Shown piece by piece: positions 7,600-62,862 of a stretch of DNA of 64,000 bases. The translations under genes were made by a program, and so were the position numbers. This DNA is from Microcoleus sp. CAWBG506 (GTDB taxonomy: Bacteria > Cyanobacteriota > Cyanobacteriia > Cyanobacteriales > Microcoleaceae): positions 1 to 64,000 of the forward strand of contig JAHREW010000030.1 in the NCBI GenBank assembly GCA_020883125.1. The letters run 5' to 3'. The notes beneath the pieces were generated by a model. That model saw nothing but the letters and a program-made list of their open reading frames with translations. It ran no database searches and had not been told where the DNA came from. Positions within the stretch are counted from its first letter, which is position 1. The number at the start of each line of letters is the position of its first letter.

Positions 7600-8319
7600 C
7601 TATAACTCAAAATTATCGATCGCCCAATGCCATTTTTTTTGATGCAGCCGATCGCACATCTGCACTTTCTCAACCGTCAAATATTGCTGAAATTCCGGTT
7701 TTTCCAGACCGCTGCGCCACATCACCAGAGCATCTTCTCCAGTGTCTTCGTAGTATCGTTTCCGCCGTCCTGCTTCTTTAAAACCAAATTTTTTGTACAG
7801 GGAAACTGCCGCTAAATTCGAGTCCCGCACCTCTAAAGTCGATCGCTCTAATTGTCTGTCGTGAGCCGATTTTAGCAAAGCCAAAAGCAGAGCTTGTCCC
7901 AAACCCTGACGTTGAAACTGAGGATGAATTGCCAGCATGATAATGTGAGCTTCCTCTAAAATTGCCCACAAACAACCGATACCGATGAGTAGGGGCGGTG
8001 GATGGTGCGTGCCCGCCCGGTTCTGTAGGGGCGGTGGATGGTGCGTGCCCGCCCGGTTCTGTAGGGGCGGTGGATGGTGCGTGCCCGCCCGGTTCTGTAG
8101 GGGCGGTGGATGGTGCGTGCCCGCCCGGTTCTGTAGGGGCGGTGGATGGTGCGTGCCCGCCCCCTCCCATGTCCATAAACCTAATAAATCGCTGTTAGGA
8201 CTCTCTAGCTCGCGCCTGTAGCCTTCGATCGCCCAAATTCCCCCAAAACAGAGGCGATCGAGTTCTACGGCATCAGGCAGGTGTTCTGGGGTCAGAGGTT
8301 TGATTTCGAGAAAACGCAC
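7600..8319 (-). CDS. rimI: GNAT acetyltransferase, RimI-like, with in-frame repeat insertion
   Basis: This is probably ribosomal-protein-alanine N-acetyltransferase or a close relative. The GNAT fold is seen in LTPEHLPDAVELDRLCF at the N-terminus, LAIHPQFQRQGLGQALL (acetyl-CoA loop, about residues 129-145) and RDSNLAAVSLYKKFGF. Length is 239, against roughly 150-190 for the family. The excess is a run of 12-residue units AGTHHPPPLQNR at about residues 54-110, encoded by a 36-bp tandem DNA repeat. It lies at a strand boundary before IGIGCLWAI, so the fold may tolerate it. Not in an obvious operon. Confidence 0.8.
   Translation of the reverse strand: MRFLEIKPLTPEHLPDAVELDRLCFGGIWAIEGYRRELESPNSDLLGLWTWEGAGTHHPPPLQNRAGTHHPPPLQNRAGTHHPPPLQNRAGTHHPPPLQNRAGTHHPPPLLIGIGCLWAILEEAHIIMLAIHPQFQRQGLGQALLLALLKSAHDRQLERSTLEVRDSNLAAVSLYKKFGFKEAGRRKRYYEDTGEDALVMWRSGLEKPEFQQYLTVEKVQMCDRLHQKKWHWAIDNFEL
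7990..8162. repeat. 36-bp tandem repeat (4.8 copies) inside rimI
   Basis: The unit starts taggggcggtggatggtgcg and is 36 bp long. Four full copies begin at 7990, 8026, 8062 and 8098, with a 29-bp partial copy from 8134. The copies appear identical, which implies recent expansion. Length is a multiple of three and no stop arises in the rimI frame. Its taggggcgg...cccgccc ends resemble the GGGCGGGTT repeat family found between genes here. Confidence 0.95.
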
Positions 8320-41187: not shown

Positions 41188-41305
41188 ACAGATCCCCCCT
41201 AACCAGGGCGGGCACGGGGGCACCGCCCCTACAAAGGGGGGGACAAGAAAGCTCTCAAAGTCCCCCTTCTTAAGGGGGATGCGAGGGGGATCTCCGGGGC
41301 ATAAA
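41188..41305. repeat. G/C-rich repeats after the ABC transporter
   Basis: gcgggcacgggggcaccgcc and then cccccttcttaagggggatg plus gcgagggggatct. The CCCCTT...AAGGGG pattern is the same as the repeats inserted in the amidohydrolase and tsaB genes. Confidence 0.7.
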
Positions 41306-42987: not shown

Positions 42988-43053
42988 GTAGGGGCGGGTT
43001 CACCAACCATATCTAACTCCCACAAACAATCTTAATAAACCCGCCCCCGCCCA
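42988..43053. repeat. GGGCGGGTT-ended element, copy 2
   Basis: gtaggggcgggttcaccaac at the left and aaacccgcccccgccc at the right. With copy 3 in opposite orientation 38 bp away it forms a long inverted repeat. Confidence 0.85.
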
Positions 43054-43090: not shown

Positions 43091-43159
43091 GGTGGGGTGG
43101 GGGCGGGTTTATGCAAATTGTCGGCAATCATTATAGATGGTTGGTGAACCCGCCCCTAC
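43091..43159. repeat. GGGCGGGTT-ended element, copy 3 (inverted)
   Basis: Reverse orientation to copy 2: ggtggggtgggggcgggttt at the left, ggtgaacccgcccctac at the right. Confidence 0.85.
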
Positions 43160-46195: not shown

Positions 46196-46260
46196 GTAGG
46201 GGCGGGTTCACCAACCATCTCTAACTCTCATAGATTATCTACATAAACCCGCCCCCACCC
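46196..46260. repeat. GGGCGGGTT-ended element, copy 4
   Basis: gtaggggcgggttcaccaac to aaacccgcccccaccc, the same orientation as copy 2. Confidence 0.85.
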
Positions 46261-62764: not shown

Positions 62765-62862
62765 GTTCCCAGGCTCTTCCTGGGAACCAGTTAAAATTCC
62801 TGTAGGGGCGGGTTTTACCAACAATAATTGCCTAAAACTAATAATATACTAAACCCGCCCCG
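62765..62862. repeat. Palindrome plus GGGCGGGTT-ended element, copy 5
   Basis: GTTCCCAGG-CTCTT-CCTGGGAAC (62765-62787), then the fifth GGGCGGGTT element (62802-62862), the most diverged in its middle. Confidence 0.8.

Follow-up and report, generated by a model that had tools for sequence, protein, structure and literature searches.

The closest described counterparts of the element analyzed here are the GTAG REPs, which, according to Di Nocera, De Gregorio and Rocco (2013, PMC3733652), have a stem of 5-13 bp and a loop of 2-20 bp, form head-to-tail clusters, and flank RAYT genes. Their ends can supply the TAG stop codon of a neighboring gene, and intragenic units are a listed feature of the class, with in-frame GTAG REPs in known proteins and clusters that code for 43 to 82 residues in Thauera and R. 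conorii; loops and linkers are argued there to tolerate them (PMC3733652). Three cyanobacterial families, GTAG-12, -15, and -16, are described, and the main text of the study names neither Microcoleus nor Oscillatoria. The same text treats the Rickettsia palindromic elements, which are short in-frame palindromes in likely functional proteins. The rimI element described below resembles them in this respect; they differ in that R. conorii RPE-4 and RPE-6, which are intragenic, belong to the CGTC class, which is without a dedicated transposase, in that RPE-1 is longer, and in that their host is unrelated to Microcoleus (PMC3733652). We rejected an assignment to these elements, as the unit has a GTAG sequence and lies in a cyanobacterial genome: it works alike but is not one of them. 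Another source states that overlap of REPs with coding regions is rare (PMC12306157), and its available text mentions neither Microcoleus nor Oscillatoria.

The window, the whole 64,000-nucleotide stretch of Microcoleus sp. CAWBG506 DNA that we analyzed, carries a tandem array of such units within rimI (Table 1). The 36-bp unit is composed of a 30-nt GTAG-tagged REP-type palindrome and the 6-bp spacer GGTTCT, in the plus-strand order GTAG, GGGCGG, loop, CCGCCC, and spacer, and it folds, on the CTAC strand, into a hairpin with a 6-bp GGGCGG/CCGCCC stem and a 14-nt loop. With an unpaired GTAG end, a stem and a loop within the published ranges, and dispersed copies, the unit is, judging by its sequence, a GTAG-tagged REP of a Microcoleus/Tychonema genus. 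The array encodes AGTHHPPPLQNR units, and the statement of the initial annotation that nearly five identical 36-bp units lie in frame in rimI without a stop is confirmed, with 4.8 units, 100% matches, and a 239-codon ORF that stays open throughout the array. Five of the six frames of the unit are open, the sole stop being the TAG of the GTAG tag, and the CTAC strand, which is the one that codes in rimI, has no frame with a stop. We considered the open unit as evidence of selection and rejected it, because composition alone often gives five open frames (73% of 20,000 GTAG-keeping shuffles).

Table 1. Features of the window, with coordinates in the window
Feature	Position	Strand	Basis or remark
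rimI, ribosomal protein S18-alanine N-acetyltransferase, 239 aa, GTG start	7600-8319 (feature 7603..8319)	-	TIGR01575, predicted fold
Tandem array, 4.8 identical 36-bp units	7989-8162	+	Tandem Repeats Finder: period 36, 100% matches
REP unit 1	7989..8018	+	Pattern match, sequence reading
REP unit 2	8025..8054	+	Pattern match, sequence reading
REP unit 3	8061..8090	+	Pattern match, sequence reading
REP unit 4	8097..8126	+	Pattern match, sequence reading
REP unit 5, without trailing spacer	8133..8162	+	Pattern match, sequence reading
Only other strict family match in the window, short-loop type	41206..41232	-	Longest spanning frame 46 codons
Element of ~55-60 bp, long inverted ends GTAGGGGCGGGTT...AACCCGCCC in the best copies	28-84, 42990-43048, 43099-43157, 46198-46256, 62804-62862		Frames of at most 42 codons

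A search of the 64-kb window with Rfam at gathering thresholds gave no match. The GGGCGGGTT motif has 11 matches in the window, well above the 0.47 expected. Ten of these form five inverted pairs, each part of an element of about 55-60 bp that is distinct from the rimI REP although related to it; it would seem to be a longer relative, confined to the DNA outside genes. The eleventh match is single and lies within a 553-codon frame. The resemblance to elements found between genes, pointed out earlier, stands insofar as the rimI unit is a relative of such elements, but the motif matches themselves belong, with one exception, to a different element.

The array-bearing gene is identified as RimI by a curated model, with a TIGR01575 score of 104.3 bits against a cut-off of 86.4, and by a predicted GNAT fold, the best PDB match of the AlphaFold model being the E. 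coli RimI (PDB ID 5isv_B), with a TM score of 0.83 by target length. Two strands of the model (residues 43-52 and 110-120) flank the array. The pLDDT falls below 50 at residues 58-82 and 84-90, with block means over residues 51-110 of 63, 42, 41, 42, 55, and 76 (the last two for 91-100 and 101-110), and the rest of the model, the last residues excepted, reaches 89-98. The array is hence modeled as a predicted disordered turn inside a confident GNAT fold, and it would be tolerated because this long turn is without a defined fold. The rimI core is under purifying selection, with a dN/dS of 0.067 between the copies of this genome (G000) and G011, both array-bearing, and of 0.078 between G000 and G026. 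The gain of about 57 residues claimed for the array holds as a count between the flanking predicted strands (residues 53-109) but not as a net figure: because orthologues already have a loop at that place, the rimI loop gains about 34 residues over single-unit relatives and 21 over the median.

The history of the site was read from 29 same-genus rimI copies, which come from 28 genomes and include the second copy of G000. By eye, a REP in this same position, immediately ahead of LIGxG, is clear in 18, decayed in 5, and lacking in 6. Many copies have the junctions CAAAACCGGGCGG... and ...CCCCTACAGATTCC in common, pointing to one old insertion. The loop measures 99-102 bp in 9 of the 27 same-genus copies read (the single-unit relatives), has a median of 141 bp, and reaches 204 bp here. 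Among the 28 copies read, which include one from another genus, 27 have a loop length divisible by 3; L003, L021, and L030 fell outside the loop script, L003 being read separately and L021 being cut by a contig end. A conserved, non-repetitive segment of equal length was looked for in these orthologues and is absent, the loop running from 69 to 378 bp. Of the two events implied by the initial annotation, the recent expansion is borne out, all units being identical here and mixed in G011, and a recent insertion into this rimI is not supported as stated, given the clear and decayed units at the same place in other copies. The insertion is old, and only the copy number is recent.

The three largest arrays are those of G000 (4.8 units), G011 (10 units, of mixed types), and G026 (3 units), and their genes cluster with a support of 93/88 in a tree built without the loop, where the second rimI of G000, with two units, joins the long-array group at 99/98. 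The tree has 26 rows and is without G003, G008, G020, and G025, the last of which has no rimI core match among the matches listed. The unit types at this fixed site differ among species and imply at least 5 changes over 14 labeled rows on the best tree, a count that may be too high since the tree leaves 7 of 23 inner branches without resolution and that uses labels assigned by eye, as the loop states were. Exchange between REPs would explain these differences. The rimI of G000 is, by eye, without a linker of about 30 bp before the REP and one of about 15 bp after it.

An exact repeat of 174 bp is hard for short reads, and the genome is a draft in 81 contigs, so short reads might have stacked or collapsed the units in assembly. 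We regard such an artefact as very improbable, since the G011 and G026 assemblies have arrays at the same rimI place with different units and the frame is kept in G000; what the draft state of most assemblies makes uncertain is the exact copy number. It is also improbable that selection keeps the array, with a Pro/Gly/Thr/His-rich linker tuning RimI through substrate access or ribosome or partner binding and slippage adjusting the unit number. The presence of a clear or decayed unit in 23 of the 29 same-genus copies (by eye), the frame kept in all but one of the copies read, and the long arrays that two related genomes keep beside a constrained core would agree with a selected linker. However, six copies are without the REP, the changes of unit type and the wide range of loop lengths suggest that no particular sequence or length is needed, and the same REP element also occurs in unrelated proteins.

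The genome has a second, shorter rimI on contig C51 (24834-25472), and the end of this contig is identical to positions 1-117 of the window. If the two contigs join there, the two rimI genes are about 8 kb apart and point in the same direction. With two copies present, the long one may be spared by redundancy in this genome. A full and a 5'-truncated rimI, about 7 kb apart and with a rearranged neighbor order, are found in G022. The rimI protein of G011 is identical to that of L072, and the one of G026 to that of L090. The G026 gene, the only rimI among 5 of 6 matches listed for this metagenome bin, is off frame by one base in a run of seven C behind its 3-unit array, where G011 has five C. 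The core of this copy still has a low dN/dS, and a sequencing error, a fresh loss, or slippage may have caused the break.

These observations bear on two further explanations. The first, that the expanded rimI is decaying and being lost while the copy about 8 kb away spares it, would draw on the second rimI, on the contig end identical to the window, and on the broken frame of G026, but it is unlikely given the low dN/dS between the array-bearing copies of G000 and G011, and given that the 10-unit gene is the only intact rimI of G011 among 5 of 8 matches listed. The second, a contingency locus in which slippage of the array and of the C run behind it switches RimI on and off, is extremely unlikely: the one-base shift in the C run of G026 is what such a switch might look like, but it is seen in 1 of 28 copies read, from a metagenome bin, and the units measure 33 or 36 bp, so that whole-unit slippage would not switch the frame.

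The REP belongs to a dispersed family, with 35 strict matches of the pattern of tag, stem, and stem in G000 (reversed control, 0), five of them in rimI and 30 elsewhere. Each of the 29 same-genus genomes has 4 to 119 sites, and the control produced a single match, in just one of these genomes. The GTAG tag and the GGGCGG stem are found in the rimI units and in all strict sites read except C61, which has TTAG, and the loop types are TGCCCCCGTGC, the commonest, TGCCAAGAGTGC, and TGGATGGTGCGTGC, the rimI type. Tandem in-frame units with a variable copy number are also the mark of coding minisatellites; the rimI array differs from these in that its unit is a hairpin that is dispersed through the genome, at 30 strict sites besides those in rimI.

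More than half of these other sites (16 of 30) lie in frame inside 15 long ORFs, namely, a Gfo/Idh oxidoreductase, cysS, a CHAT protein (two sites), an Eco57I-type methylase, gcvP, a TPR-glycosyltransferase, thrB, chlD, two STAND-like proteins (by eye), gltB, fructosamine kinase, ileS, rsmE, and a dehydrogenase-like protein (by eye). The products of ileS, cysS, gcvP, thrB, chlD, and rsmE exceed curated equivalog cut-offs, some of the proteins being cut by the locus end, and the gltB product can be aligned with a glutamate synthase of solved structure over 1,400 residues; L069 and L155 gave no profile match in one library each, and the C61 gene was named by eye. Of the 16 in-ORF REPs, 11 have CTAC as the coding strand, with each of the three frames represented, and 5 have GTAG. 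The remaining 14 sites are in no long ORF, and four of them surround the RAYT-like gene described below. With about 75% of the window being ORF (at least 150 codons; 68-81% at other cut-offs), the share of 16 of 30 is a mild depletion and not avoidance (P = 0.003, computed with 15 of 30, before C61 was added). The idea that the repeat tolerates or exploits coding DNA is upheld for tolerance, by the 15 further long ORFs, and exploitation is left unproven by the shuffles. Among six looser family matches outside the strict set, four are in long frames (C1:29711, C9 twice, and C12) and one is in the second rimI. Tandem in-frame units are also found in a CheA-like kinase (G025), a CHAT protein (G011), and a TPR-glycosyltransferase (G011 and G026), the gene names being given by eye.

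Empty sites are seen for two of these genes. In ileS, 22 of the 25 orthologues read (G022, G009, G025, and G026 were left out) are without the REP, which is present in G000, G011, and G021, where about 30 bp stand in place of about 6 bp, a net gain of 24 (by eye). In gltB, G000 is the sole carrier, 21 of the 22 loci read being without the REP (8 of 30 loci were left out by the reading script); here, within a variable loop, the REP replaces some 30 bp, with a net gain of 9 (by eye), and the loop contains a different C-rich repeat in G015 and G008. The gcvP loop, with classes assigned by eye in 21 of 29 genomes, has the REP in 2, a CCCCCC...GGGG element in 3, AACAGTC-like heptamers in 10, and short unrelated residues in 6. 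The differing fillings of the gltB and gcvP loops show that some loops can take in repeats from several families. We saw no target-site duplication.

Other repeats adjoin some of the REPs. In one STAND-like protein (L069, G000:C34), about nine PVPA(L/P) units come after the REP; these 15-bp repeats are seemingly derived from the REP end. In rsmE (L156, G000:C78), several in-frame PPQPPLVRGEQGLE units and variants lie beside the REP, so that two repeat families adjoin in an rRNA methyltransferase. The TPR-glycosyltransferase frame of more than 3,300 codons has 4 or 5 THHPQD-type units before the REP in G026 (L035, C115) and G011 (L036, C12) and one in G000 (L064).

Contig C15 has a candidate mobilizing gene, which encodes a Y1 transposase in 181 codons and has an HUH-like motif, DHIHG. 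The gene ends on the TAG of one REP, and three further REPs in the opposite orientation, with a run of N among them, lie upstream. The protein scores 54.7 bits with NF047646, below the cut-off of 80, for which reason we call it RAYT-like, and barely passes PF01797 (Y1 transposase), with 24.3 bits against 23. Close homologues, 84-86% identical, occur in G011, G015, and G021, and REPs flank the gene on both sides in inverted orientation in all four close homologues (84-100% identical); in G021 (L251), the upstream REPs are of the rimI loop type. None of the 26 loci of more distant homologues examined has REPs beside the gene. The four genomes with a close homologue have 35, 91, 102, and 119 REP sites and the 25 without one have 4-116, giving a P of 0.015 in a one-sided rank test that is not corrected for kinship. 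Against a simple link between the gene and the REP number stand G017, with 116 sites and no match to the RAYT-like protein, and G000, with the gene and 35 sites. The arrays beside RAYT-like genes have steps of 35, 36, 37, and 39 bp and the in-frame arrays (rimI and the CHAT protein of L034) steps of 33, 36, and 54 bp, which agrees with a coding constraint in a small sample; the 37-bp-step array falls in a stop-free upstream extension of the RAYT frame.

In its tag, stem, loop, clusters, RAYT-like flanking, TAG stop, and in-frame copies, the rimI family is like the GTAG REPs described in PMC3733652, where intragenic units and clusters of 43-82 residues are already published. Unlike in the cases described there, 16 of the 30 strict non-rimI copies here are in long ORFs, a frequency in coding DNA that is unusual, the copy number can be compared across the orthologues of one gene, and the unit type varies at a fixed site. 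Two points are notable, namely, how large a part of the copies lies in genes and that single loops can be followed as a series from species to species. Among the CC-licensed PMC papers listed by our searches, we found none on this element in Microcoleus, a scope that does not allow us to claim priority.

Taken together, the account that we consider highly probable starts with a single REP that, as the orthologues show, entered the RimI turn between two beta strands early in the genus. Because disorder is predicted for this turn and the reading frame was preserved through the element and its junctions, RimI would have stayed working, as purifying selection suggests. The REP then multiplied head to tail in the group of G000, as the arrays show, likely by replication slippage or unequal exchange between neighboring hairpins, and selection would discard arrays that break the frame. 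The RAYT-like transposase is the likely mover of the family, and the extra RimI residues are probably a neutral linker.

More tentatively, the REPs of the genus might be a coding-compatible mobile element that repeatedly colonizes the same surface loops of essential enzymes, swaps types, and changes its copy number, giving rise to length-variable hot spots. If this is true, the gcvP, gltB, and rimI loops would reflect one process, in which mobile hairpins feed new disordered segments into housekeeping proteins. The REP-bearing ORFs of G000 include two tRNA synthetases and central metabolic enzymes. For annotators, AGTGAPPLQ- or GGHGGTAPT-type inserts in these cyanobacterial proteins are REPs and not domains. 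With unit numbers between 0 and 10 that can be traced through 28 related genomes, the rimI site offers a natural series of a rare kind, which bears on how a hairpin enters a protein, on how a folded enzyme tolerates it, and on whether such inserts gain a use.
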